Assembly: GCA_014380135.1 (NCBI GenBank)
Contig: JACMKN010000113.1
Coordinates: forward strand, 1-33,955
Length of the DNA stretch: 33,955 nt
Origin: Deltaproteobacteria bacterium
GTDB lineage: Bacteria; Desulfobacterota; Desulfuromonadia; Geobacterales; Pseudopelobacteraceae
Direction: 5' to 3'
The translations under genes and the position numbers were made by a program. The notes beneath the pieces were generated by a model. That model was not told where the DNA came from, did not search any database, and was given only the letters and a program-made list of their open reading frames with translations. Numbering within the stretch: position 1 is the stretch's first letter; the number at the start of each line of letters is the position of its first letter. This document shows positions 1 through 33,379 of the stretch, piece by piece.

Positions 1-2150
1 AGGGCGAGAAAGGCAGCCGTTGCAACGGCGGGTATGCCCAGCCAGAAGATGGCGGGATTGCCGAAGGAAACGATGCTGGAGGCGGTTCCGTCGGGGAGAC
101 CGGCCCCGGTGTACATCCAAATCGGATGCAGGTCCAGCGGCCATGACCACCAGGGTGAGGAAAAGGGATGGGTGGCCTGCAGCGTCCGATGGTAATTCAG
201 CATGTGGGCCTGAAGGCGGAAAACACCCGTCAGATCGTGACCCGGACCGGGCAGGGCCAGGTACGGAAGAAATGCCGAAAGATAGATCAGGGCCGGCAGC
301 ACCCCGAATGCAACCAGGCAGACGCCGATCCGCCGCAGGAGAAATCCGGCCATCCCGTACATTGCGGGATAATTCCGCTGCCGCAGTTCCGCTGCCGTCC
401 GCAGGATCACCAGAAGGACCATGCCGCAGCCGGCATAGAGCGCAATCCACTTACATGCCGCTCCGATGCCGAAGGCGACCCCTGCCAGGAGCAGTGTCAG
501 GTTCGTGCTGCGGCGTGGGCTTTCACCTTTTTCCGGGAACAGGTCGAGAATGAAGTAGTACATCAGCAGAATGAAAAAGACACCGTAGACATCAATCACC
601 GCTACCCGACTCTGGGCGAAACGCATGAATTCGACCGTCATCAGGAATGCGGCACAGAAGGCGTAATAGCGGTTGCGGAAAAGCTTAAGGCCAAAGAGGT
701 ACATCAGCGGCACCAGCGCGACTCCGAAAAGCGCCCCGACGACCCGCCAGCCAAAGGGATTCATTCCGAAAACGGCAATGCCGGAAGAGATCAGGAGCTT
801 TCCCAGCGGCGGATGGGTCGTTTCGTACGGTTCGATCCGGTGGAGCATTTCCCAGGCTGTCCGGGCGTGATAAATCTCGTCGAAGTAGAATCCGGTCCGG
901 AAGGAGGGGGCGAATTCGAAGGACGACTGCTCGTCGATCAGGCTTTTCGTTTTTCCCCTGTCAGCGCCGGAGAGCTCTCCTTTAACGATCTTGAGATCCG
1001 TCAGTGGAATCCGGCTCCCCTTTTCGACAAAGGCAATTTCGTTCAAACGGCCGCCGGGAGTGTCGGCGGTGAGGCGGACGGCGCTGGTCCGTACGGTAAC
1101 CTCGCTGTACTTCCAGACGCCCACGTCGTCTTTATTGAATGATGCCAGTTCGACAAAGGCTCCGGCAGGGTTGAGCGCGGCAATCGAATACTGGCTTCCA
1201 TCGCCGCTACTGTCGTTGATGCCGCAGTAATAATAGATGCGGGAAAGATCCACCTCGCGGCCAAGATTTATGGTCACTGATTCGCCGGCCGCGGTGGATT
1301 GCCAGCCTGTTTCAGGGGCAATGTGGCCGCCGAGATTGAAGAGGGAAACCAACAGACAGGCAACCGACAGGGCCGCCATCACGGTAATATCAACCAATTC
1401 GACCTTTTTATGCGGCGCAGCAACCGGGTCGGTTTCATCCGGCGCCCATTCGCCAATATTACCGCCCCGGCGCCGAATAATGGCTCCCCAACACGCAAGC
1501 AACACTCCAATACAGCCCAGGGCCGCTATGACCGCTCCACCTGCACGGACCCGGCCGACCGGAGCGGGGGCGGTAACCGCAGGAGGCTGCAGCGATGCTA
1601 CTCGAATGCCGGCTGGTGCGCTGCTTACCTTTGCCACCGTTACATCTCTGAACCGGACAGTTCCGCTGTTCAGGCTGCCATACCCGCCGACACCGACCGT
1701 TACGGACAGCTTCTTCTGGTCTGAACCGGTTTTTCCATAAAACTCAAGCAATTGCCAGTTGTTGCCGCTGCCTTTGATGTCAGGCGAGCCATCCTGAATC
1801 TCTGCAACAGAAATTCCGGCGCCCCGGGCGGCGGAACCGACATTTTCGCTGCGGGCCAGACAGGCGAAGCGATAGACCGTATCCGGTTCCACCGACAGTT
1901 CACGTACGAAGCGGGCGTCGTTGGGGGCTGCCGCAACGATTTGAAGCTGAGCACCGTCCTTTCCCTGCACGATTTCGAAACGGGCAGTGCCCGGTTTCCC
2001 GGAGGAGGCGTTCCAGTCGTATCTCATCCACTGCTGAACGCTCAACGGTTTGTCGTCAGAGGTTAAGGCCTGGATCTCACTTGCTGAAAGTGCTGTTGCA
2101 GTCAACAGCAGCAGTAGTGTGCTAAAAAGCGTTCGCAATACTCCGCTCAT
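1..2150 (-). CDS. GT39 protein O-mannosyltransferase (PMT-like), C-terminus outside window
   Basis: Membrane glycosyltransferase expected to move a sugar from a polyprenyl-phosphate donor to Ser/Thr of exported proteins. The start is the ATG at 2150, behind a GAAGGAT-like ribosome site; the frame stays open to base 1 (716 codons, no stop). Seen: a signal-like hydrophobic N-terminus (about 1-22); a beta-rich module (about 30-175) resembling carbohydrate-binding sandwiches; two membrane segments (about 205-225 and 247-268); a discoidin-like module (about 285-390); then the PMT core with YFDEIYHART (acidic pair at 423-424) and ETTHPPLGK, followed by many membrane helices. The DE pair and THPPLGK are hallmarks of the GT39 family. 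The 400-residue extension before the core is not usual for the family. It follows a Pro-Thr-rich cytochrome gene across a terminator and shows no clear promoter of its own, so read-through expression is likely. Family is sure; the sugar and substrate are inference. Confidence 0.88.
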   Translation of the reverse strand, partial: MSGVLRTLFSTLLLLLTATALSASEIQALTSDDKPLSVQQWMRYDWNASSGKPGTARFEIVQGKDGAQLQIVAAAPNDARFVRELSVEPDTVYRFACLARSENVGSAARGAGISVAEIQDGSPDIKGSGNNWQLLEFYGKTGSDQKKLSVTVGVGGYGSLNSGTVRFRDVTVAKVSSAPAGIRVASLQPPAVTAPAPVGRVRAGGAVIAALGCIGVLLACWGAIIRRRGGNIGEWAPDETDPVAAPHKKVELVDITVMAALSVACLLVSLFNLGGHIAPETGWQSTAAGESVTINLGREVDLSRIYYYCGINDSSGDGSQYSIAALNPAGAFVELASFNKDDVGVWKYSEVTVRTSAVRLTADTPGGRLNEIAFVEKGSRIPLTDLKIVKGELSGADRGKTKSLIDEQSSFEFAPSFRTGFYFDEIYHARTAWEMLHRIEPYETTHPPLGKLLISSGIAVFGMNPFGWRVVGALFGVALVPLMYLFGLKLFRNRYYAFCAAFLMTVEFMRFAQSRVAVIDVYGVFFILLMYYFILDLFPEKGESPRRSTNLTLLLAGVAFGIGAACKWIALYAGCGMVLLVILRTAAELRQRNYPAMYGMAGFLLRRIGVCLVAFGVLPALIYLSAFLPYLALPGPGHDLTGVFRLQAHMLNYHRTLQATHPFSSPWWSWPLDLHPIWMYTGAGLPDGTASSIVSFGNPAIFWLGIPAVATAAFLA

Positions 2151-2185
2151 TTTTTCATATCCTTCGTGAAGAACAGCAGGTTCAA

Positions 2186-2219
2186 CAAAAAAACCGGGAG
2201 AGCTGAAAGCTCTCCCGGT
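2186..2219 (-). terminator. Intrinsic terminator after the Pro-Thr cytochrome gene
   Basis: A perfect 12-bp stem (2193-2204 with 2208-2219) and 3-base loop are followed on the minus strand by a run of seven T. It lies between the cytochrome stop and the glycosyltransferase start, only 36 bases before that start, so the glycosyltransferase would depend on incomplete termination. Confidence 0.9.
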
Positions 2220-2314
2220 CGGAACAATTACGGCATCAGCAGATTTGATATGCCGAATTCTTCTGCAGTCGGGCTGTTCTCAGTATACTGATGTCGCCCA
2301 AGCTGCCGAAATGA

Positions 2315-2833
2315 CTACTGCCCGGCGGCCAGCGCGGAAAGCTGCGCAGCAGACAGGGCTCTGAGGGAGGCCGAGCCCATTCCGCCCTTATTGCCGCTGA
2401 TGGCGGACTGAGTCGAAGATGCTGATGCGGTTTGCTTCGACGATCCGTGGCACCCGGCGCAGTACTGGTTGTACAGAGCAAAGGTCTTGGCAGGAGCCGG
2501 AGTCGGTGTCGGAGCAGGGGTTGGCCTAGGCGTAGGAGCTGGCGTAGGAGCAGGAGTTGGTCTCGGTGTAGGAGCCGGCGTAGGAGCAGGAGTCGGTCTC
2601 GGTGTAGGAGCCGGCGTAGGAACAGGAGTCGGTCTCGGAGTTGGAGCTGGCGTAGGAGCAGGAGCAGGTGTTGGGGTCGGTCTTACACTGTGTTTCCGGC
2701 CACGTCGTCCGTCACGATCGTTATCGCGGTCGTCATCACGGTCGGAGTCGGCAAAACTGGTGGAAACGAGTCCTGCGATGAGAAGGCTGCTGATGGCACA
2801 CACTGAAACTAACTTCTTGGATTTAAAAAACAT
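2315..2833 (-). CDS. Secreted monoheme c-type cytochrome with Pro-Thr repeat linker
   Basis: A 172-residue exported cytochrome. The ATG at 2833 follows a strong GGAGGAAAG ribosome site. Seen in order: Sec signal peptide (about 1-28, ending SFA-D), an Asp/Arg-rich stretch (29-47), a Pro-Thr-Ala repeat with regular Arg (about 51-115, 12-residue period [12 protein letters not shown]), and a small haem domain with CAGCH (125-129) and a likely axial Met at 152 in GGMGS. This fits a class I monoheme cytochrome tethered by an extended linker, acting outside the inner membrane in electron transfer. Known Geobacter extracellular cytochromes such as PgcA also carry Pro-Thr repeats, but those have more haems, so I do not give the name. 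The gene lies behind two tandem GEMM riboswitches and before a GT39 O-mannosyltransferase, which makes the Thr-rich linker a candidate glycosylation substrate (inference). Confidence 0.88.
2494..2683. repeat. 36-bp tandem repeat coding the Pro-Thr linker
   Basis: Nearly identical 36-base units (for example 2566-2601 and 2602-2637) with degenerate flanking units encode the 12-residue Pro-Thr-Ala-Arg period of the cytochrome linker. In-frame length change by slippage is expected for such an array. Confidence 0.9.
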
Positions 2834-2885
2834 TGGGTCTTTCCTCCGTTATTTTTGGTTTTGTACATTTCGGTTGAAACAGCAA

Positions 2886-2930
2886 TTACTGTGAAAAACG
2901 TTCACCCATGCAATCTTTTTGTGGTTGCAT
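2886..2930 (-). CDS. Possible 14-codon leader ORF between riboswitches and cytochrome
   Basis: A short frame starts at the ATG at 2930, directly after an AAGGAGG sequence, and ends at 2886. The ribosome site is only two bases from the ATG, which is too close for good initiation. It may be chance, or the purine run may serve another purpose in the leader RNA. Confidence 0.2.
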
Positions 2931-2972
2931 CTCCTCCTTGTGAGTGTTCCCCCGCTGTTTTCCGTGTCCGGA

Positions 2973-3031
2973 CACAGAGACAGCCAGGGACCGAAGTAAG
3001 GTGACATTTCGGCATCCTGGCTGTCTCTGTG
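2973..3031 (-). promoter_or_regulatory. Expression-platform hairpin of the second GEMM riboswitch
   Basis: A perfect 16-bp inverted repeat (3016-3031 with 2973-2988) encloses a 27-base loop that can form an inner 5-bp stem (CCGAA/TTCGG). Its first arm is part of the second aptamer, so ligand-bound aptamer and hairpin exclude each other. No T run follows on the minus strand; instead a 12-base palindrome GTGTCCGGACAC overlaps its base. It is therefore not a standard intrinsic terminator. Confidence 0.7.
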
Positions 3032-3080
3032 AGACCCTGTAGGCTTTCCGCCCCATTCTCGCGAATGGTTTAGTATTATC
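3003..3080 (-). promoter_or_regulatory. GEMM-Ib (cGAMP-type) riboswitch aptamer, second of two
   Basis: The 78-base minus-strand segment has the GEMM-I core: AAACCATTC, a GCGA tetraloop, GAATGGGGCGGAAAGCC, then a GGGTCTC/GAGAC stem and a terminal GCCGAAA, closed by GATA/TGTC. It matches, from memory, the Geobacter 3',3'-cGAMP riboswitch much more closely than the Vibrio c-di-GMP Vc2 aptamer. It differs from the first aptamer at only 5 of 78 positions. Confidence 0.9.
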
Positions 3081-3111
3081 GTCTATCGCCTGCTGAGAAG
3101 AATGGGCACAC

Positions 3112-3161
3112 AAAAAAAGCCGGGTTGCCATATATCAGTTATGATATTTCGGCAACCCGGC
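3112..3161 (-). terminator. Riboswitch-controlled terminator of the first GEMM unit
   Basis: An 11-bp GC-rich stem (3151-3161 with 3119-3129) is extended by an inner ATATCA/TGATAT stem and followed on the minus strand by seven T. Its first arm GCCGGGTTGCC lies inside the first aptamer. Ligand binding should prevent termination, making this an ON switch. Confidence 0.9.
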
Positions 3162-3220
3162 TGTCTCTGTGAGACCCTATAGGCTTTCCGCCCCATCCTC
3201 GCGAATGGTTTAGTATTATC
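3143..3220 (-). promoter_or_regulatory. GEMM-Ib (cGAMP-type) riboswitch aptamer, first of two
   Basis: Same 78-base architecture as the second unit, with GATA/TATC closing pairs, the AAACCATTC-GCGA-GGATGG hairpin, GGCGGAAAGCC, and the GGGTCTC/GAGAC stem. The changes between the copies mostly keep pairing, such as U-G to U-A in the tetraloop stem. It is the first aptamer transcribed, about 25 bases after the predicted start site, and overlaps its own terminator. Confidence 0.92.
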
Positions 3221-3250
3221 GACTACCTTCTCAGCAAATTGTTGACTGAA

Positions 3251-3277
3251 ATTATATCGAATACGGAATCATGTCAA
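3251..3277 (-). promoter_or_regulatory. sigma70 promoter of the tandem riboswitch leader
   Basis: TTGACA (3272-3277) and a consensus TATAAT (3251-3256) lie on the minus strand with a 15-base spacer (16 or 17 if either box is shifted slightly). Transcription would start near 3244, so the whole leader with both aptamers is made. Confidence 0.75.
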
Positions 3278-6422: not shown

Positions 6423-7844
6423 ATGTTCAAATCAACCGTATTATCATTTCGTTTTCTGGTCATGGGGCTTGTGTCTGCCTTGGCGCTGCCATCTCTATCG
6501 GATGCCGGACCGATCAGCCCTGATTTTGTCGAGTTGTCGAAGAAACTTAATCCGACTGTTGTCAATATTCGCACAGCCAAAAACATCAAACCCAAGCAGC
6601 GATTGCGAAGACCCCAGCAGCAAAATCCCTTTGGAAACAATTTCCTGGATGATTTCTTCAATCGTTATTTTGATGACATGCCGCAACAGCGCCCTCGTCG
6701 CGAGCAAAGTCTCGGTACCGGCTTTATCATCAGTGCTGACGGTTACATCCTGACAAACAATCATGTTGTCAATGGAGCCGATGAGGTTATGGTCAAGCTT
6801 TCCGATGGGCGAGAGCTTAAAGGTGAGATTAAAGGACTGGATGAAAAGGTCGATCTGGCCCTGATCAAGATCAGTGACAAGGACAAACTCCCGTTTGCAG
6901 AACTGGGCGACAGTGACACACTGGAGGTCGGTGAGTGGGTTATGGCCATCGGAAATCCTTTTGGCTTGTCGCACACGGTTACCGTCGGCATTGTCAGCGC
7001 GAAAGGCCGTGTGATCGGAAGTGGACCGTATGACGACTACATACAGACCGATGCTTCCATCAATCCCGGCAACTCCGGCGGGCCACTATTCAGTGCACAG
7101 GGCAAGGTAATCGGCATCAACACCGCAATTATTGCCGGTGGCGGTGGTGGAATCGGTTTTGCCATTCCAGTCAGCATGGCCAGGGAAGTAGTCAGTCAAC
7201 TGCGCGACTCCGGCAAAGTAACCCGAGGTTATCTTGGAGTACGCTTCCAGCCGTTGACGGCCGATCTTGCCAAGTCCTTCGGGCTTGAATCAGAAAAAGG
7301 CGCTTTGATTGCGAGCGTGGAGAAGGATACGCCGGCAGAACGTGCCGGGCTCAAAGCCGGCGATGTTATTCTTGAATATGACGGTAAGCCAATCAATGAC
7401 GGCGGGAATGAACTGCCCCGTTTTGTAGCGGCAACGCCGATCGACAAAAAAGTCAAACTATCTGTTTTTCGTGATGGTAAAAAACAGTATGTGTCGATTA
7501 TTGTCGGCAAGTTGAAGGACGGTAGCAGCGAGGTATCTTCAGTCAGTAGTAATGAAAGCGACAAGATCGGCATCGCTGTTGAGGAGCTTAACAAGGAAAA
7601 GGCAGACCGGCTTGGTATACGCGAAGCCAAGGGCCTGGTCATAAGCGAAGTCAAGCCTGGCTCTTCGGCAGAAGATTCCGGTGTTTTAACCGGCTCGATT
7701 GTCATAGAGATCAATGGCCAGCGTCCGGAAACACTGGCTGCTTTCAATGCCGTTACGGCAAAACTTGTCAAGGGCGACGTCGCGCGCCTGCTGCTGAGAC
7801 GTCCCGATAACAGTGTGCATTACATTGCCATAAAGGTGGAATAG
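6423..7844 (+). CDS. HtrA/DegP family periplasmic serine protease (Do-like)
   Basis: A 473-residue exported protease and chaperone. A signal peptide (about 1-28, ending SDA-G) leads into a trypsin-like domain with the complete triad: H114 in TNNHVV, D144 in KVDLAL and S218 in GNSGGPLF. Two PDZ domains follow (about 260-350 and 385-470). The length and two-PDZ layout match DegP/DegQ; I cannot separate the two, so no symbol is given. It should degrade or refold damaged envelope proteins. GGGAGG precedes the ATG at 6423. It follows an orphan response regulator and heads the run with a polyferredoxin, rdgC-like, obgE and proB genes. Confidence 0.94.
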   Translation: MFKSTVLSFRFLVMGLVSALALPSLSDAGPISPDFVELSKKLNPTVVNIRTAKNIKPKQRLRRPQQQNPFGNNFLDDFFNRYFDDMPQQRPRREQSLGTGFIISADGYILTNNHVVNGADEVMVKLSDGRELKGEIKGLDEKVDLALIKISDKDKLPFAELGDSDTLEVGEWVMAIGNPFGLSHTVTVGIVSAKGRVIGSGPYDDYIQTDASINPGNSGGPLFSAQGKVIGINTAIIAGGGGGIGFAIPVSMAREVVSQLRDSGKVTRGYLGVRFQPLTADLAKSFGLESEKGALIASVEKDTPAERAGLKAGDVILEYDGKPINDGGNELPRFVAATPIDKKVKLSVFRDGKKQYVSIIVGKLKDGSSEVSSVSSNESDKIGIAVEELNKEKADRLGIREAKGLVISEVKPGSSAEDSGVLTGSIVIEINGQRPETLAAFNAVTAKLVKGDVARLLLRRPDNSVHYIAIKVE

Positions 7845-13530: not shown

Positions 13531-15279
13531 TCAGTCCACAAAACTCTTCAACTTCTTGCTGCGGCTGGGGTGGCGCAGCTTGCGCAAAGCCTTGGCTTCA
13601 ATCTGACGAATACGCTCTCGGGTAACTTCAAAATCCTGACCGACCTCTTCCAGGGTGTGGTCGCTTTTTTCGCCGATGCCGAAACGCATCCGCAGAACTT
13701 TTTCCTCGCGTGGTGTCAGTGTTGCCAGAACCTTGGCGGTACTTTCGGAAAGATTGGCTTTGATAACGGCGTCGATCGGCGAAACGACACCCTTGTCCTC
13801 GATAAAATCACCAAGGTGGGAATCTTCTTCCTCACCGATGGGGGTCTCCAGTGAAATCGGCTCCTTGGCAATCTTGAGCACCTTGCGTACCTTGTCAAGC
13901 GGCAACTGCATGCGCTCGGCAATCTCTTCCGGTGACGGTTCCCGGCCATTTTCCTGTACCAGCTGGCGGCTGGTGCGGATCAGCTTGTTGATGGTCTCGA
14001 TCATATGTACCGGGATGCGGATCGTGCGAGCCTGATCGGCAATGGCACGTGTGATGGCCTGACGAATCCACCAGGTGGCATAGGTGGAAAATTTATAGCC
14101 GCGCTGATATTCGAACTTGTCCACTGCCTTCATCAGTCCGATATTCCCCTCCTGGATCAGATCGAGAAATTGCAACCCGCGATTGGTGTACTTTTTTGCA
14201 ATAGAAACAACCAGTCGGAGGTTTGCTTCAATTAACTCGCTCTTGGCAATACGGGCCTTACATTCACCTTCTTCAATCGCCTTAAGCGCCGCCGCGAGAT
14301 CGCGTGCCTTGAATCCGGATTCCTGCTCGACCTTTAACAGCTTGCGAGCCGAAATTCTAAGGCGCTTTTCAAGTTTCAGAGTTTCTTCTTCGTCCAACTT
14401 CAACTTTTTAAGCTCTGACGTTGCCTTTTCGTCTTCGTCCTGCAGTTTGTCAACCAAAGCCTTCAATTTGTCAGATGGGATGAGTGCCTCAAGATCGGAT
14501 AGCTCTTCGTGCATCTTGTCAACCTTTAGTGACAATTCCTTGAGTCGTTCGGCCACCTTGTTGGTGTGGCGGTCTTTCAGGCGCAGGGACTTGAGCAGTT
14601 CAGCCTGGTGGTCCTTGGCATCCCGATATTTCTTTTCCTGTTCCTTCTTTTTTGCCGGAGATTTGGCTTCGGATATCGATTCGGTTATCTCGGACAGTAA
14701 CTGGTCTTGTGCCGCAATTGAATCAATGACTTCCAGCAGACGAGTCTGCTGAACATCTTCTTCATCCTCTTCAAGCTGTTCCTCTTCGATTTCTTTGCTG
14801 ATCTCGGAAGGGTTTATCTGAAACTTGCGCAGTCTTTCGCCCAGGGAAAGCACTTCCTTGACGGTGATCGGTGTATTAAGGATGACCCCGGCCACGTCCC
14901 GCTCGCCATCTTCAATGCGCTTGGCAATCTCGACTTCACCTTCTCTGGTTAGAAGAGAGACCGAACCCATCTCGCGCAGATACATCCGAACAGGGTCACT
15001 GGTACGACCGATCGAGCCGGGCTCGAATTCAACCTCCTCCGATTCACCCTCGGCCTCTTCATCTTCCTCCAGTTCGATCTTCATTTTGGGGATCTTTACC
15101 TTCTGGGAAGAATCCACAATTTCTATGTCCATATCGCCGAACATGCCCATAACATCTTCGATCTGGTCGGTGGCTATGTCCGGGGGGAGTATGTCGTTGA
15201 CCTCGTCAAAAGTGAGAAAGCCTTTTTCCTTGCCGATATCAATCAGTTGTTTGACATTGTCCATGTTCTTTTTTGCCAT
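13531..15279 (-). CDS. rpoD: RNA polymerase primary sigma factor (sigma70)
   Basis: A 582-residue housekeeping sigma factor. Region 1.1 (about 1-80), region 1.2 with [11 protein letters not shown], and a long acidic, Lys/Glu-rich non-conserved segment (about 150-330) come first. Regions 2.1-2.4 with [20 protein letters not shown] follow, then region 3, and region 4 with the helix-turn-helix [19 protein letters not shown] close to the end. The length is typical for proteobacterial RpoD. GAGGTGA precedes the ATG at 15279. It lies 40 bases after dnaG in the classic rpsU-dnaG-rpoD order, so its level is tied to ribosome and primase supply. Confidence 0.98.
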
Positions 15280-22490: not shown

Positions 22491-24554
22491 TCAGGCTATC
22501 TTTGAAAAATCGGCGATTCTTCCGAACATGCGGGCTATGCCGGTCAACAGTGCCAGGCGGTTTTCCCGCACTTTCGAGTCTTCCGCCATAACCATGACTT
22601 TCTCAAAAAAAGTATCCACCGGGCCGCGCAGGGTCGCAATTTCGGTCAGTGCATCCAGCCACTCTCCGGATGTGACCCTGATCTCCACCGTGTCTTTGGC
22701 CGACAAAAAGGCTTCGTAAAGACAACTCTCGGCCGGGTCCTGGAACAGGGCCGGATTGATTTGAGCGTCGTTGCCATCTTTGATGATATTGCCGACCCGC
22801 TTGAAGGCTCCGGTCAGCGGTTCGAAGTCGGGATGGGACTTGAACTCGGCCAGGGCAGCGATGCGGGCCTTGACGTTCACCAGATCACCGAATTGTGCCG
22901 ATACTGCCGCATCTACGGCGTCTGTTGCATAGTCGTTTGCCAGCAGATTCACAAAGCGTCCCCGGAAAAACTCCAGCACATCGGCAGACACCTGCTCTCG
23001 CGGGCGGGTAAGCTTGGGTGTCAGAAGTTGAAGCGATTGATCGATCAAGGCCTGAAGTGACAAACGGTAGCCCTTGTCGAGAATAATACTGATGATACCG
23101 ATGGTGGCGCGCCGCAGGGCATAGGGATCGGCGGCGCCGGTCGGGATCAGCCCCACGCCGAAACAGCCGCAGATCGTGTCCAGCTTGTCGGCGATGGAGA
23201 TAAAGGCGCCGATATCGGATGCCGGCAGTTCACCGCCGGCCTGGATCGGCAGATAATGCTCGGCGATGGCGTTGGCTATGTCACGATTCTCGCCCTCCAG
23301 CAGGGCATACTCGCGTCCCATGATACCCTGTACTTCAGGGAATTCCCCCACCATTGCGGAAACCAGGTCGGCCTTGCAGAGCGTGGCGGCGCGAACGGTC
23401 TGTGTCTTGACCGTCGGGTTGAGCTGTTCCGCCAGTCCAACCGCCAGTGCTCTGAATCGCTCCATCTTCTCAAAAGAGGTACCCAGTTTTTGCTGGTAAA
23501 CAACCTTCTTGAGCGACTCGACCCGCTCGTCCAGCTTCACCTTCTGGTCCTCATCGAAGAAGAAACGCGCATCGGACAGGCGGGCGCGCAGGACGCGTTC
23601 ATTACCCTTGACTACTACCGAGGGATCATCGGTCAGTGTGTTGTTGATCGTGATGAAGCCCGGCAGCAGATTGCCATCAGTATCCACGATGGAAAAATAG
23701 CGCTGGTTGTTGCGCATGGAGGTGATCAGAACCTCCTTGGGAACTTTCAGGAATTCGGCCGAGAAGGTGCCATGTACGGCACTGGGGTATTCCACCAGAT
23801 AAACAACCTGATCCAGCAGCTCTTCATCCGGCAGCAGATGTCCTCCGGCGGCAATGGCCACACGGTGCGTTTCGCGGCGGATGATCTCTTTGCGCCGCTC
23901 CGGATCGGCGATGACAAAGTGCCGCTCGCACTCTTCCAGATAATGGGCGAAATCCCGTACCGGGAAGGTCGTATTGGCCATGAAACGGTGCCCGCGGGAG
24001 ATCGTGCCGCTCTCGATGTTGCCGAAGGAGAAGGGTACCACGATGCCGTCGAACAGGGCCACGATCCAATGGATCGGGCGGGCGAAACGGACATCCTGAT
24101 CGCCCCAGCGCATCGATTTTTTGAAGGGGATGTTCGACACCAGCCGCGGCAAAATCTCGGCCAGCAGTTCATGGGTCGGACGACCGGTTTCCTGTTTGGT
24201 CACCGCCAGATATTCGCCCTTATCGGTGCTGATGATCTGCAGTGCTGAAACATCCACCCCCTGCCCACGGGCAAAACCCTCGGCCGCCCTGGTCGGATTG
24301 CCTTCGGCATCGTAGGCGGCTTTCCTTGACGGACCGGTGGCGGTGATTTCAGCATCGGGCTGCACGGCCGGAATATCCTTTACGACCAGTGCCAGGCGAC
24401 GGGGAGTGGCCACGGTTTTGATCTCGCCGAAAGTGAGGCGGACAGCCGCCAGCTCCCGTACGATCATGGTTTCCATCTCTGCCAGGGCGCGGGGGATAAA
24501 CCCGGCCGGGATTTCTTCGGTGCCTATTTCCAAAAACAGTTCTTTGGTACTCAT
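22491..24554 (-). CDS. glyS: Glycyl-tRNA synthetase beta subunit
   Basis: A 687-residue subunit of the bacterial alpha2-beta2 glycyl-tRNA synthetase; it binds tRNA and is needed for charging. [19 protein letters not shown] at the N-terminus, [12 protein letters not shown] and the HD-like segment in the middle, and a C-terminal anticodon-binding part match GlyS. The length is normal. The start overlaps the glyQ stop as ATGA. Confidence 0.98.
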
Positions 24555-28684: not shown

Positions 28685-28701
28685 AGTTGCACGGAGCCGC
28701 C

Positions 28702-30528
28702 ATGTCCCAGCGAATAACGATACTGCCGGAGAACCTGACCAACAAGATTGCCGCCGGCGAGGTCGTCGAGCGTCCCTCTTCGGTCATCAAGGAGCTGGTT
28801 GAAAACTCTCTGGACGCCGGGGCGACCGATATCTCCGTTGAGATTGTCTCCGGTGGCCGGCGGTTGATCCGTGTGGCCGACAACGGCTATGGCATGTCGC
28901 GCGAAGATGCCCTGCTTTCGCTGGAACGCCATGCCACCAGTAAGATCAAGAGTGACAGTGACCTGGACGGCATTCTGACCCTCGGTTTTCGCGGAGAAGC
29001 GCTCCCCTCGATCGCCTCGGTCTCGCGCTTTTGCCTGGCCACGCGTGAGGCCGGCAGTCCGGAAGGAACCGAGATCACCGTGGAGGGGGGGCGGGTGCGG
29101 GATGTCAAGGCTTGCGGCATGGCTCCCGGAACCGTCATCAGCGTCGAACAGATATTCTTCAATATCCCGGCCCGCCTCAAATTCATGAAGAGTTCCGAAA
29201 CTGAAGCCGGTCATGTGGGGGATGTGGTGGCCCGTCTGGCGGTTTCCCGCCCGGAGGCGGCCTTCAGCTGCATCAGCGACGGGCGGGAAATGCTGCGGGT
29301 ACAGCGCAGTGACCTGCAGCGGCGTCTGTCGCAAGTTGTCGGCAGGGATGCCGCATCACACCTGCACAAGGTCGATTCCTGCAGCGAAAATGTCACTGTC
29401 AGCGGCTTTGTCTCCGGGCCGACACTGGTTCGTTCCGGCCTGCAGGCCATGTACACCTATATCAACGGCCGATTCGTACGCGACAAGGTCGTGCAGCACG
29501 CCGTCATGCAGGCCTACCGCGGCGTGATCGACCGCGGCCGCTATCCGGTGGTGGCCCTTTTCATCCAGCTTCCGGCGGGAGAGGTGGATGTCAATGTCCA
29601 TCCCACCAAGCACGAAGTGCGCTTCCGGCGTCAGTCCGTCGTGCATGATGCCATCCAGGGCGCGGTGGAGGAGGTGCTGCGGCTTTCGCCCTGGCTGGCC
29701 GGCAGGCCGCAGCTGACGCCATCGCCGTCACTATCACCGACAGCGCCGACCGGCCAGGCCTATCGCGAACGGATCGCCGCAGCGGCCCAGGCTTCACTGA
29801 CGATGCCGCGCCGCGAACAGCATCATCCGCAGCCTTCAGCCCCGATCAGGACGGTGGCGACATCTTCCGAAGCAGCACTCGAAGCGGCTACCGTCAGCGA
29901 GCCGGCTGTGCCATTCAAAGTTGAACAGGGCCATCCTGCTGCCGGCTACTTCTCTTCGCTGACGGTCATCGGCCAGTTTCACAGCGAGTACATCCTGTGC
30001 CAGTCCGGAGCGGATCTGGTGATAATCGACCAGCACGCCGCCAGCGAGCGGGTGGCCTACCAGCGTCTGAAACAGCAGTGCCTGGCCGGTGGCATTGAGT
30101 CGCAGCGGATGCTCTTTCCGGAGACAGTCGAGCTGTCGTTCAGCGAGGTGGCAGTTGCCGGACGTTTCCGGCATGATCTGGCCGGCATCGGTTTCGAGCT
30201 GGAGCCGTTTGGCGGCAATACGCTGATGGTGGCCGCCGTTCCGCGACTGGCTGCCGAAAAAGATCCTGTCCGGCTGGTACGGGACATTCTGGCCGATCTG
30301 GCCGGGCTCGGCACCAGCGCCGCTTTCCAGGATGCGCTGGATGAGCTGCTCTCCCGGATCGCCTGCCACTCGGTTGTGCGGGGAGTTCATGCTCTTGAAA
30401 TCCGCCAGATGCGGGAGCTGCTGCACAGCATGGACGAAACCGACTTCGCCGCCAGCTGTCCGCACGGCCGCCCTGTTTCGCATGTTGTTACCCTGGCCGA
30501 GCTGGAAAAGATCTTCAAACGGACATGA
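28702..30528 (+). CDS. mutL: DNA mismatch repair protein MutL
   Basis: A 608-residue repair protein that links MutS to strand excision. The N-terminal GHKL ATPase has ELVENSLDAG (31-40), DNGYGM (60-65) and GFRGEA (95-100). The transducer domain with YTYINGRFVRDK and NVHPTKHEVRF follows, then a Pro/Ala-rich linker (about 335-400) and the C-terminal dimer domain. That domain carries endonuclease-type motifs: DQHAASE at 443-449, ACHSVV, and CPHGRP from 586. The usual DQHAxxExxxxE ends here in Q (Q454). I chose the ATG at 28702 with GGAG before it. The stop overlaps the ligase start as ATGA. Confidence 0.97.
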   Translation: MSQRITILPENLTNKIAAGEVVERPSSVIKELVENSLDAGATDISVEIVSGGRRLIRVADNGYGMSREDALLSLERHATSKIKSDSDLDGILTLGFRGEALPSIASVSRFCLATREAGSPEGTEITVEGGRVRDVKACGMAPGTVISVEQIFFNIPARLKFMKSSETEAGHVGDVVARLAVSRPEAAFSCISDGREMLRVQRSDLQRRLSQVVGRDAASHLHKVDSCSENVTVSGFVSGPTLVRSGLQAMYTYINGRFVRDKVVQHAVMQAYRGVIDRGRYPVVALFIQLPAGEVDVNVHPTKHEVRFRRQSVVHDAIQGAVEEVLRLSPWLAGRPQLTPSPSLSPTAPTGQAYRERIAAAAQASLTMPRREQHHPQPSAPIRTVATSSEAALEAATVSEPAVPFKVEQGHPAAGYFSSLTVIGQFHSEYILCQSGADLVIIDQHAASERVAYQRLKQQCLAGGIESQRMLFPETVELSFSEVAVAGRFRHDLAGIGFELEPFGGNTLMVAAVPRLAAEKDPVRLVRDILADLAGLGTSAAFQDALDELLSRIACHSVVRGVHALEIRQMRELLHSMDETDFAASCPHGRPVSHVVTLAELEKIFKRT

Positions 30529-32384
30529 TAGTTGCTGTTGAATGCTCTTTTGCCGTACCGGGGAAGATGCTCCGCACCGTTACTCTCCTTCTGTTCCTTT
30601 TGCTGGTTTCAACGTTCTGCCTCCCGGCACTGTCCCGCGCCTGTCCGGATATTTCTGCCTCTGACGCCAGTCAACGGATGGTTACCCTGGGAAACGCTAT
30701 CCGTTACCACAATCGACTTTATTATGAAAAAGCGCAGCCGGTTATCAGTGATGCCGAGTATGACCGGCTGTTTGCAGCACTGGTTCGGCTGGAGGAATGC
30801 TTTCCTGCGCTGGTTGCCGCGGACTCGCCGACCAAGCGGGTGGGCGGTGTTGCGGGTGTTGGTTCTCGGAAGGTGCCGCACGAACGCCCGATGCTCAGTT
30901 TATCATCCACTGGCGGTCCGGAGGCGGTGGCAGCGCTGCTGAAGAGGATTGCGGCATTCGGAGAAGTGTCTTTGCTGGTTCAGCCCAAGGTAGATGGTCT
31001 GCCGGTGGAGCTGATTTATGATGCCGGTCGTCTGGTTTCGGCTTCGACGCGCGGGGACGGCAGTTTCGGTGAGGAGGTTACGGAGCGGGTTCGCGAAATC
31101 CGGGGTATTCCACACATCTTGTCCGGTACTTATCCTGATAGAGTGGTGGTTCGTGGCGAAGTCTATGCAAATCTGCCGCTTCTGCAGAACCATCGAGTGG
31201 TAACTGCAGCAGAAAAATATGCCACCCCGCGTCATTTGGCTGCCGGGGTCTTGCAAGCACAAAAACCGGACCCGGCAGCCTTGGCGGCTCTTCGTCTGTT
31301 TCCCTTTGGACTGGTGACCGGCGCTTCGGTCGGAGGCGGCCTGCGCTCCGACCGGGCGGCACTGCAGTTGCTCTCGGAGTGGGGCTTTCCGGTCGTTTTT
31401 GAGCAGATTCACACGGTGCGAACCTTTGCCGAAGTCCGGGCCGTTTATCTTGCCTATCTGGCAAACCGGGATCAGCAGCCATTTGCCATGGACGGGATTG
31501 TGGTGAAAGTGGATGATCTGTCTCTGCGGCAGCAGTTGGGGGAGGGCGGACGTGCGCCTTTCTGGGCGGCGGCCTGGAAATTTCCGCCGGAGAGCGCCCT
31601 GACTCAGGTGCGGGACGTTCGCTGGATGGTCGGCCGCACTGGCCGCCGTACGCCCATTGCCGAGCTTGTGCCGGTGCGTCTCGCTGGTGTGCAGGTTTCA
31701 CGGGTTTCGCTGCAAAATGCTGCCGAAGTTGCCCGTCTGAATATTGCGGCTGGAGATCAGGTGGTGGTTGCGCTGGTGGGAGACGTGATCCCCCAGATAC
31801 TGGAGGTGGTAGGGCGAGCAGATCGCAATCCGGATGCCGGAGCGGCAACGACGCAGATACCGGAAGCAGCCTTGGATGCTTGCCTGCACGACTCACCCGT
31901 TTGTCGGAATCAGTTCCTGGCCAGGGTTGCTTATTTTGTCTCGAAGTCGGGGCTTGATATTGCGGGCCTAGGGAAAAAACGCCTGCAAAAGTTGGTTGAA
32001 GCCGGACTGGTTGTAGATCTGCCATCCCTGTTTCTGCTGAAAGCGGAGCAAGTGGCTACCCTGCCCGGATTCGGTACGGAAAGGGCGCGACGATTAACTG
32101 TGGCAATCCGTGCCGCCGGTCATTTGGACTCTTTCCGCTTTGTTGCCGCCCTGGGCATTCCCGGTGTCGGACCGAAGACGGTACCGCGTCTGGCACGGCA
32201 ATTCGCCTCCCTGGATGCGCTGCTGGTCGCCGGGCAGGAACGATTGACAGCCCTCTCTGCTGCCGATAGCCGTGCGGCAAATACCATCCGTAGTTTTTTC
32301 AACTCGCCCGGCGGGCAGGAACTGCTGGTGAAATTTCGTGAACAGGGCCTTCTCCGAACTGCAACCCCATTGCAGTCAAGATGA
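30525..32384 (+). CDS. LigB-like NAD-dependent DNA ligase with N-terminal signal sequence
   Basis: A 619-residue NAD-dependent ligase homologue. The adenylation domain has YHNRLYYEKAQPVISDAEYDRL (NAD-binding Ia-like part) and the active-site KVDG (K155 counted from 30525), with the OB fold and helix-hairpin-helix region following (LPGFGTERARRL, LGIPGVGPKTV). A proper four-Cys zinc finger and a BRCT domain are missing, as in E. coli LigB. Before the ligase part lies a clear hydrophobic signal-like segment (LRTVTLLLFLLLVSTFCLPALSRAC). LigB of E. coli has such a segment too. The start overlaps the mutL stop (ATGA at 30525); an ATG at 30567 would start right at the signal segment. It sits between mutL and miaA, where a ligase is not usual. 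Confidence 0.85.
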   Translation: MIVAVECSFAVPGKMLRTVTLLLFLLLVSTFCLPALSRACPDISASDASQRMVTLGNAIRYHNRLYYEKAQPVISDAEYDRLFAALVRLEECFPALVAADSPTKRVGGVAGVGSRKVPHERPMLSLSSTGGPEAVAALLKRIAAFGEVSLLVQPKVDGLPVELIYDAGRLVSASTRGDGSFGEEVTERVREIRGIPHILSGTYPDRVVVRGEVYANLPLLQNHRVVTAAEKYATPRHLAAGVLQAQKPDPAALAALRLFPFGLVTGASVGGGLRSDRAALQLLSEWGFPVVFEQIHTVRTFAEVRAVYLAYLANRDQQPFAMDGIVVKVDDLSLRQQLGEGGRAPFWAAAWKFPPESALTQVRDVRWMVGRTGRRTPIAELVPVRLAGVQVSRVSLQNAAEVARLNIAAGDQVVVALVGDVIPQILEVVGRADRNPDAGAATTQIPEAALDACLHDSPVCRNQFLARVAYFVSKSGLDIAGLGKKRLQKLVEAGLVVDLPSLFLLKAEQVATLPGFGTERARRLTVAIRAAGHLDSFRFVAALGIPGVGPKTVPRLARQFASLDALLVAGQERLTALSAADSRAANTIRSFFNSPGGQELLVKFREQGLLRTATPLQSR

Positions 32385-32434
32385 CTGCGCAACAAACTGC
32401 TGCAAAATATAATCTTGGGACAAGACATAACTCA

Positions 32435-33379
32435 ATGAAGACACCTCAAATCCTCCACAAACTCCTGATCATCTGCGGCCCGACCGCCTCCGGCAAGAGT
32501 GACCTGGCCCTGCGTCTGGCCCGTGAACTGGATGCCGAGATCATCAATGCCGACTCGATGCAGGTCTACCGCGGTCTGGACATAGGCACCGCCAAGCCGA
32601 CCCCTGAACAGCGCGCCGAAATTCCCCACCATCTGATCGACATCGTTGATCCGGATGAGCTTTTCTCAGCGGCCGATTTTGCCGGGGCGGCCGACGACGC
32701 CATTCAGGATATCATCGCGCGTGGCAAGCGGGTTATTGTCGTCGGTGGTACCGGCCTCTACATCCGCGCCCTGCTGAAGGGACTGGTGGATTCTCCCAGC
32801 GGAGCCGGTGAAATACGGGCTGCATTGCAGGAAGAGGCCGGTCGATTTGGCAACGCGGCCATGCTGGAAAAGCTGCGCCTGGTGGATCCGGAACTGGCTG
32901 CCGGACTGCACCCCAATAATCTGGTGCGCATCATCCGCGCCCTGGAGGTGCAGCAGTTGACCGGCATCCCGCTTTCCCGCTATCAAAAGGAACACTCCTT
33001 TTCCGCGCGGCGCTACGACACTCTGCAGATCGGAATTTCGGTCGAGCGGGTAGAACTGTACCGGCGTATCGAGCAGCGTGTTGAGCGGATGCTGGCCGAG
33101 GGCCTTCTGGATGAAGTGCGCGGACTGCTGGCGGCCGGTTTCGGGCCTGATTTGAAAGCCATGCGTTCAATCGGTTACAAGGAATCTACTGCCCACATTC
33201 TGGGAGAACAGACGCTGGAGGAAACCATTTGTCTGATAAAACGCGATACCCGGCATTATGCCAAGCGTCAGCTGACCTGGTTCAAGGCGGACCCGGATAT
33301 AATATGGTTTGAATATCCGGAAAAATTTGCTAATATTTTACAGCATGTAATTGAATTTTTTGAAAGACGGGAGGCGTAA
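32435..33379 (+). CDS. miaA: tRNA dimethylallyltransferase
   Basis: A 314-residue enzyme that adds the dimethylallyl group to A37 of tRNAs reading UNN codons. The P-loop GPTASGKS (15-22), DSMQVYRGLDIGTAKPT, GGTGLYIRALLKG and the terminal RHYAKRQLTWFK are family hallmarks. I chose the ATG at 32435; an earlier in-frame ATG at 32381 overlaps the ligase stop but would add 18 residues coded by AT-rich, unusual codons and not found in the family. hfq follows at once, as in many proteobacteria. Confidence 0.96.
   Translation: MKTPQILHKLLIICGPTASGKSDLALRLARELDAEIINADSMQVYRGLDIGTAKPTPEQRAEIPHHLIDIVDPDELFSAADFAGAADDAIQDIIARGKRVIVVGGTGLYIRALLKGLVDSPSGAGEIRAALQEEAGRFGNAAMLEKLRLVDPELAAGLHPNNLVRIIRALEVQQLTGIPLSRYQKEHSFSARRYDTLQIGISVERVELYRRIEQRVERMLAEGLLDEVRGLLAAGFGPDLKAMRSIGYKESTAHILGEQTLEETICLIKRDTRHYAKRQLTWFKADPDIIWFEYPEKFANILQHVIEFFERREA

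Follow-up and report, generated by a model that had tools for sequence, protein, structure and literature searches.

The window analysed here, the 33,955 nucleotides of contig C146 in a draft genome of a Deltaproteobacteria bacterium (G000; 2.99 Mb, 336 contigs, 79% complete), carries at its left end the gene for a secreted cytochrome, preceded by two riboswitches and followed by the gene for a protein O-glycosyltransferase of the GT39/PMT family. We find that these genes probably belong to a cytochrome regulated by cyclic GMP-AMP (cGAMP) and equipped with a dedicated extracytoplasmic O-glycosylation cassette, which would act on the threonines of the cytochrome's Pro-Thr linker. A first-pass annotation, made from the letters of the window, had read cytochrome, switches and enzyme as one module; that unit held up and proved incomplete, since it also takes in two more genes that resemble glycosyltransferases and, in some relatives, a gene of GtrA type. 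The central proposal, that the cytochrome and the adjacent glycosylation enzyme form one module, is well supported by comparison of sequences across genomes. All of its parts in the window lie on the minus strand:

3251–3277 (−): promoter-like TTGACA-15-TATAAT ahead of the first switch, read directly, both hexamers perfect
3148–3224 (−): riboswitch aptamer 1 (RF01051, cGAMP-type), 45.1 bits, A at the ligand-selecting position
3112–3161 (−): intrinsic terminator overlapping the 3' strand of aptamer 1, its expression platform; fold z −8.5, seven terminal U
3008–3084 (−): riboswitch aptamer 2 (RF01051, cGAMP-type), 43 bits, A at the ligand-selecting position
2973–3031 (−): 16-bp anti-aptamer hairpin of switch 2, lacking a U run, from folding and sequence reading
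2315–2833 (−): secreted monoheme c-type cytochrome with a PgcA-type heme domain, 172 residues, from open reading frame, motif and profile
2483–2683 (−): Pro-Thr linker of 67 residues from residue 51, with 17 Thr, the proposed glycan acceptor
2447–2461 (−): CAGCH heme-binding motif, the sole CxxCH
2187–2220 (−): intrinsic terminator between cytochrome and GT39 genes, 13 pairs and a T run, from scan and sequence
3–2150 (−): GT39/PMT-family protein O-glycosyltransferase, 716 residues, cut by the contig end, from Pfam and profile
876–881 (−): Asp-Glu pair of the first loop, residues 424–425, unchanged in all 19 aligned homologues and opposite the FDE of Pmt1 in the alignment

The evidence for a module comes from three samples: public genome contigs, scanned once; 141 Geobacterales genomes; and 395 genomes spread over the phylum. 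In the contig scan, where the nearest named relatives were Geobacter-like metagenome-assembled genomes and Geomonas silvestris, six close relatives of the GT39 protein were found (L013–L018; 60–77% identity). The enzyme occurs in 13 of the 141 Geobacterales genomes, five of which contribute L013–L017; L018 probably lies outside that order. Fifteen loci were read (the window, L004, L013–L018, L048, L051 and L054–L058), among them a second copy of the cytochrome-GT39 pair on contig C164 of the same draft genome (L004), which includes the genes lost at the window's edge. The first-pass annotation had beforehand staked its claim on conservation of the pair in related genomes, and a Pro-rich monoheme cytochrome was present at every GT39 locus (15/15), separated from the enzyme by at most about 3 kb and in two gene orders. 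Downstream of GT39 in the C164 copy stand a family 2 glycosyltransferase (GT2) and then a second polytopic membrane protein, encoded on the other strand; both were found in all loci that extend far enough (14/14). The second membrane protein is encoded in 13 of the 141 Geobacterales genomes, exactly those that bear GT39, and a PMT_4TMC control model recovered the same 13 and, among 14 named control genomes, Corynebacterium glutamicum alone. No PMT-domain gene standing away from this cytochrome was found in the 141 Geobacterales genomes. Chance adjacency was rejected, as a 4-Mb genome supposed to have three such cytochromes would place one within 5 kb with a probability of about 0.007, against 13 of 13 PMT-bearing genomes.

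Two arrangements were seen. One runs cytochrome, GT39, GT2 and has the larger form of GT39, with an efflux-type gene interposed in L018 and L051; the other (L054–L058) has a shorter GT39 and places the cytochrome at the far end, adjoining a small GtrA-type gene. Because gene order differs between the two clades, the association is not one frozen arrangement. Pairwise distances over 13 loci correlate strongly among GT39, GT2 and the second membrane protein (r 0.83–0.95, shared species history included). Besides G000, the phylum-wide search returned G419 (62% identity), which is probably L018's genome, and G476 (35%, residues 356–815). Twelve loci of Campylobacterota, including Sulfurovum (L019–L030), encode GT39 relatives of 31–36% identity, with an adjoining GT2 in eight of the twelve at the threshold used (L019, L020, L022–L025, L027 and L030). 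In the sequence available within 6 kb of GT39 at the Campylobacterota loci no Pro-rich cytochrome was found, nor a second GT-C protein at these loci, and they were not counted as the module. The interposed genes (L018:6436–8004 and L051:11450–12919) look like outer membrane efflux proteins of the TolC type, and a similar gene follows a Pro-rich cytochrome in five cassette-less genomes (L095, L096, L097, L100 and L101); the Pfam OEP domain was found in L018, L051 and L101, the other calls being made by eye. The TolC-type protein may be an exporter of the cytochrome.

If linker threonines are the acceptors, Thr is expected to persist where the enzyme exists. The median Thr fraction of the linker was 0.33 in genomes with the cassette (n = 14; the 13 plus L018) and 0.17 in those lacking it (n = 6; p = 0.0026), genus means did not overlap (8 versus 5; p = 0.0016), and a comparison per linker gave the same direction (19 versus 7; p = 0.0046). 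Of the seven cassette-less linkers, four were dominated by Ala. Within genera g22 and g2, which contain both kinds of genome, the contrast ran in the predicted direction between cytochromes that are possibly not orthologous. The cassette-less cytochromes were retrieved with a profile built on the cassette neighbours, the heme-domain search matching 61 of the 141 genomes, and linkers were read in 30 loci among the matches listed plus 20 chosen stretches, many of which proved multiheme or had no Pro-rich linker. Cytochrome-like reading frames without such a linker in L054, L056, L057 and L058 were left out. A further genome without GT39 (G070; 52% complete), which stands outside the statistics, has 5 Thr in a linker of 50 and fits the trend.

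The assignment of the enzyme to the GT39 family made in the first-pass annotation stood, whereas its sugar, mannose, was kept only as a possibility. The window's protein matches PMT (2.7e-19) and PMT_4TMC (1.7e-09), and the full-length enzyme of the second copy (817 residues; 89% identical to the window's) scores 63.7 bits for PMT (cut-off 22.7) and 64.2 bits for PMT_4TMC (cut-off 32.4). A single-sequence search of solved structures gave no match; with a profile, which was needed, the closest were Pmt1, Pmt2 and Pmt4, above ArnT. Likewise, the predicted fold of the L013 relative (predicted local distance difference test, pLDDT, 74.2; predicted template modelling score, pTM, 0.67) is best matched by Pmt4 and Pmt1-Pmt2 (Z 26.5–28.4), followed by ALG12, oligosaccharyltransferase subunits and ArnT. 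An ArnT-type lipid A transferase was considered and rejected (fold Z 22.6 versus 26.5–28.4; NCBIfam 22.4 bits against a cut-off of 567). The enzyme thus shares with yeast Pmt1/2/4 and actinobacterial Pmt (GT39) the fold, both domains and the Asp-Glu pair of the first loop. It differs from them in a beta-strand insert between transmembrane helix 1 and the catalytic loop (an F5/8 type C match below the Pfam cut-off), in an extra N-terminal domain of the larger form that is predicted to resemble carbohydrate-binding modules (Z 13.8 to 4d0q), in its GtrB-like donor synthase, and in a score far under the cut-off of the NCBIfam protein O-mannosyltransferase equivalog NF058602 (104.5 bits against 800).

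That donor synthase is the GT2. Among solved structures it comes nearest to GtrB (2.4e-98) and ArnC-type enzymes, and dolichyl phosphate mannose (DPM) synthase scores far lower (3.8e-17). Given this closer kinship with GtrB, mannose was dropped as the established sugar. The best NCBIfam model for the GT2 was PgfS (NF047588; 3.6e-87, 292.5 bits, below the equivalog cut-off of 500), and we liken it to PgfS as something that would work in a similar way. Searching solved structures by sequence yielded nothing useful for the second membrane protein, and its PMT_2 match fell below threshold, while Pfam assigned PIG-U (best 5.2e-08) to three of six relatives and GT87 likewise to three of the six. Its predicted fold (pLDDT 66.5) resembles ALG6 (Z 21.3) and ALG3 (Z 21.1), a tie that does not distinguish glucose from mannose. 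GtrA_DPMS_TM was confirmed by Pfam in L054 and L055, and similar small genes were seen in L056–L058. A three-component system, which is marked by GT2, flippase and GT-C enzyme in one locus, may be present in these shorter-GT39 loci, to which the model search for GtrA was confined.

The cytochrome fits its earlier description as a secreted monoheme protein with a Pro-Thr linker, and is laid out as a signal peptide, a charged stretch and then the linker. A profile built from 14 of the 17 cytochrome domains available matched the solved structures 8qj6 (domain I; 1.1e-18) and 8qjg (1.7e-18), identified as PgcA domains in PMC11520253 (papers are cited by PubMed Central number). PgcA of Geobacter sulfurreducens (GSU1761) carries PTx repeats, is under a cGAMP switch and takes part in the respiration of Fe(III) oxide (PMC5732950). 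The window's cytochrome is like it in being secreted, in its (PT)x linker, in its heme-domain family and in its apparent control by a cGAMP switch of the GEMM-Ib subclass (PMC5732950, PMC11520253, PMC6456294). PgcA and its orthologues are recognised as triheme lipoproteins, by three heme domains and a lipid anchor, whereas the window's protein has one CxxCH and no lipobox that could be seen by eye; the G. metallireducens PgcA homologue is described with one CXXCH (PMC5732950). In the main texts of these three papers, the string 'glycosyl' occurs 0 times, leaving PgcA glycosylation unmentioned there. A third Pro-Thr cytochrome, closely resembling the window's but with a longer repeat, was seen in the same genome (contig C291, L094:1–609; a reading frame of 202 residues), and the contigs of L094 and L004 start at or within these genes.

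A promoter and two cGAMP-type switches ahead of the cytochrome, as first annotated, were recovered; the promoter's 15-nt spacer placed it outside our promoter scan (spacer limits 16–18 nt), hence the direct reading. Both aptamers belong to the c-di-GMP-I (GEMM-I) class and score above the Rfam gathering threshold (35 bits). The ligand-selecting position, nucleotide 20 of Vc2 and A14 of the cGAMP structure, was mapped via the Rfam alignment, two papers (PMC6274999, PMC6456294) and a crystal sequence. Among 38 switches read, 37 were A-type and one G-type, 29 being called A by script and nine read by eye (seven with a variant flank, two in reverse orientation). The G-type (c-di-GMP) exception, read by eye on contig C204 of the window's own genome (L006), is one of that genome's eight switches and offers an internal contrast. 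The window's switches thus appear to belong to the cGAMP-selective GEMM-Ib subclass; the G. sulfurreducens switch upstream of pgcA has a selectivity of about 1200-fold for cGAMP (PMC6456294). The overlap of aptamer and terminator suggests that switch 1 is an ON switch. Switch 2 differs from it in that an anti-aptamer hairpin can form and the U run is absent.

The cytochrome and GT39 genes are 164 bases apart. A terminator in this gap and the lack of a clear promoter there had both been noted at first reading and were borne out: the hairpin occupies 2220–2187, and no convincing promoter was found, one 9/12 match lying upstream of the terminator. The hairpin core is kept in all eight loci where the cytochrome directly precedes GT39, three of which (L014, L016 and L048) have a single A-type switch immediately before GT39; L014 and L048 additionally have tandem switches ahead of their cytochromes. 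In total, switches at the Rfam threshold were found in 8 of the 15 loci (the window, L013–L017, L048 and L051). L004 and L016 start within a cytochrome, so that switches upstream of that cytochrome could not be judged. These placements point to two routes of cGAMP-type control over GT39, past the terminator that follows a switched cytochrome or through a switch of its own, and read-through of the terminator is plausible by analogy; that it sets the ratio of the two proteins, as first proposed, is a hypothesis. Elsewhere, an orphan switch, single and resembling those that precede GT39, follows a Pro-rich cytochrome (L098:668–742). No GT39 or GT2 remains were found near it (best E 0.12 for GT39), and it is possibly the scar of a lost cassette.

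The analogy is with Streptococcus mutans, in which cnm shares a transcript with pgfS-pgfM1-pgfE across a putative terminator, as seen by reverse transcription PCR, and in which a Thr-rich region of Cnm is the predicted acceptor (PMC5856776). As in our loci, the cnm-pgfS-pgfM1-pgfE-pgfM2 cluster runs from a substrate gene through a putative terminator to a GT-A-type PgfS and a PMT-type membrane protein; unlike them, its substrate is an adhesin and not a cytochrome, an epimerase is present, and the available text mentions no riboswitch (PMC5856776). We regard cnm-pgf as a likely functional analogue. Three-component systems (GtrA-GtrB-GT-C) likewise combine a GtrB-like synthase, a GtrA-type protein and GT-C-fold proteins in one cluster, whereas here the GT-C enzyme belongs to the protein O-mannosyltransferase type and the cluster goes with a single secreted protein. 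Among the open-licence PubMed Central papers that our searches listed, none was seen to describe a glycosyltransferase devoted to an extracellular cytochrome. The system may be described as a dedicated glycosylation system, Pgf-like or PMT-like, that accompanies an extracellular cytochrome under cGAMP regulation.

In the pathway we propose, binding of cGAMP would allow transcription past the riboswitch terminator, and the secreted PgcA-type monoheme cytochrome would be made. The GtrB/PgfS-like GT2 would load a hexose onto undecaprenyl phosphate, and a GtrA-type protein, encoded in the cluster in some relatives and presumably elsewhere in others, would flip the charged lipid. In the periplasm, the PMT-family enzyme would move the sugar to threonines of the Pro-Thr linker, and the ALG6/ALG3-like membrane protein would probably extend the glycan. 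Partial read-through of the terminator behind the cytochrome gene would yield the window's GT39, and in some relatives the enzyme has a cGAMP-type switch of its own. Outside the cell, the glycan may hold the tether extended and resistant to proteases.

Three other explanations of the gene cluster were weighed. The cassette could decorate a surface polysaccharide or lipid as a three-component system, having only neighbourhood and cGAMP control in common with the cytochrome; a GtrB-like GT2, GtrA and a membrane glycosyltransferase form the layout used for such glycans. Geobacter polysaccharide genes also have upstream cGAMP switches (PMC6456294). We consider this unlikely, as the GT39 protein has both PMT domains with protein O-mannosyltransferases as its closest solved structures, ahead of ArnT, all PMT-domain genes found in Geobacterales adjoin a Pro-rich cytochrome, and the Thr content of the linker tracks the cassette. 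It is also quite unlikely that GT39 serves many secreted proteins as a general O-glycosyltransferase, with the cytochrome as an incidental client: such breadth is typical of actinobacterial and fungal PMTs, yet the cytochrome adjoins the enzyme at all 15 loci in either gene order, and part of these loci have cGAMP-type switches in common. A still less probable account takes the Pro-Thr linker as an undecorated spacer or a point of mineral contact, attributes the Thr bias to lineage, and gives the cassette another role. Linkers of PT and PA type do both occur, including without a cassette, and mineral contact was earlier proposed for S/T-P-S/T (PMC5732950); against this, (PT)x made no contribution to iron oxide binding (PMC11520253), and the contrast within g22 and g2, subject to the doubt over orthology, runs in the direction expected of acceptors.

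Several observations weigh against the dedicated-cassette reading itself. The pair has no switch at the Rfam threshold in 6 of the 15 loci (L018 and L054–L058), so that cGAMP control is not essential to the association. Distances of the heme domain, which is short, correlate only moderately with those of the cassette proteins (r 0.39–0.43); the value for GT39 (r 0.39) was reached by 19 of 2000 permutations, with species relatedness not removed. In G050 (L058) the GT39 and second membrane protein genes are each split between frames, through either decay or an error in the draft. PIG-U, a non-catalytic relative, is matched by the second membrane protein as well. The genus means of linker Thr, the sole correction for phylogeny, are separated by a narrow margin (0.246 versus 0.236), and two cassette-less genomes are incomplete (G021, 78%; G049, 84%), p becoming 0.008 when both are excluded. 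Some cassette-less genomes have linkers that contain Thr (G055, 0.24, where it stands with Val; G021, 0.29 in one linker of two), and the first copy of the cassette cytochrome in L014 is Ala-rich (Thr 0.09). Finally, recombinant G. sulfurreducens PgcA made in Shewanella was redox-active with its (PT)x linkers (PMC11520253), so glycans are unnecessary for basic redox function.

The remainder of the window holds ordinary neighbours by Pfam: a trypsin-PDZ (HtrA-like) protease (6423–7844), a sigma-70 factor with regions 1.1 to 4 (13531–15279), the beta subunit of glycyl-tRNA synthetase (22491–24554), and MutL, an NAD-dependent DNA ligase and an isopentenyl pyrophosphate (IPP) transferase consecutively (28687–33379). 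A plasmid location was considered and dropped, as there was no plasmid match.

The carriers of the cassette are Geobacter-like, probably metal-reducing bacteria, and the dedicated-cassette reading bears on a question posed in 2024, when (PT)x repeats had been found not to aid iron oxide binding and the reason for their conservation was asked (PMC11520253). For part of Geobacterales, it offers the answer that the threonines are sites for sugars from a co-encoded machine. More tentatively, cGAMP may govern how much of an extracellular electron carrier is made and also how it is glycosylated. In these lineages at least, (PT)x may be conserved as a scaffold for glycans that hold the tether extended, shield it and keep it in its proper place outside the cell, with loss of the machine letting the repeat drift to Pro-Ala. 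This would suggest that cGAMP, a known regulator of metal respiration genes, controls protein glycosylation too. It would also provide a candidate enzyme family for O-glycosylated extracellular cytochromes, the Geobacter proteins OmcS and OmcE, and not OmcZ, being described as surface-glycosylated (PMC9473688). If true, extracellular electron carriers would follow a design rule, the sugar-coated tether.

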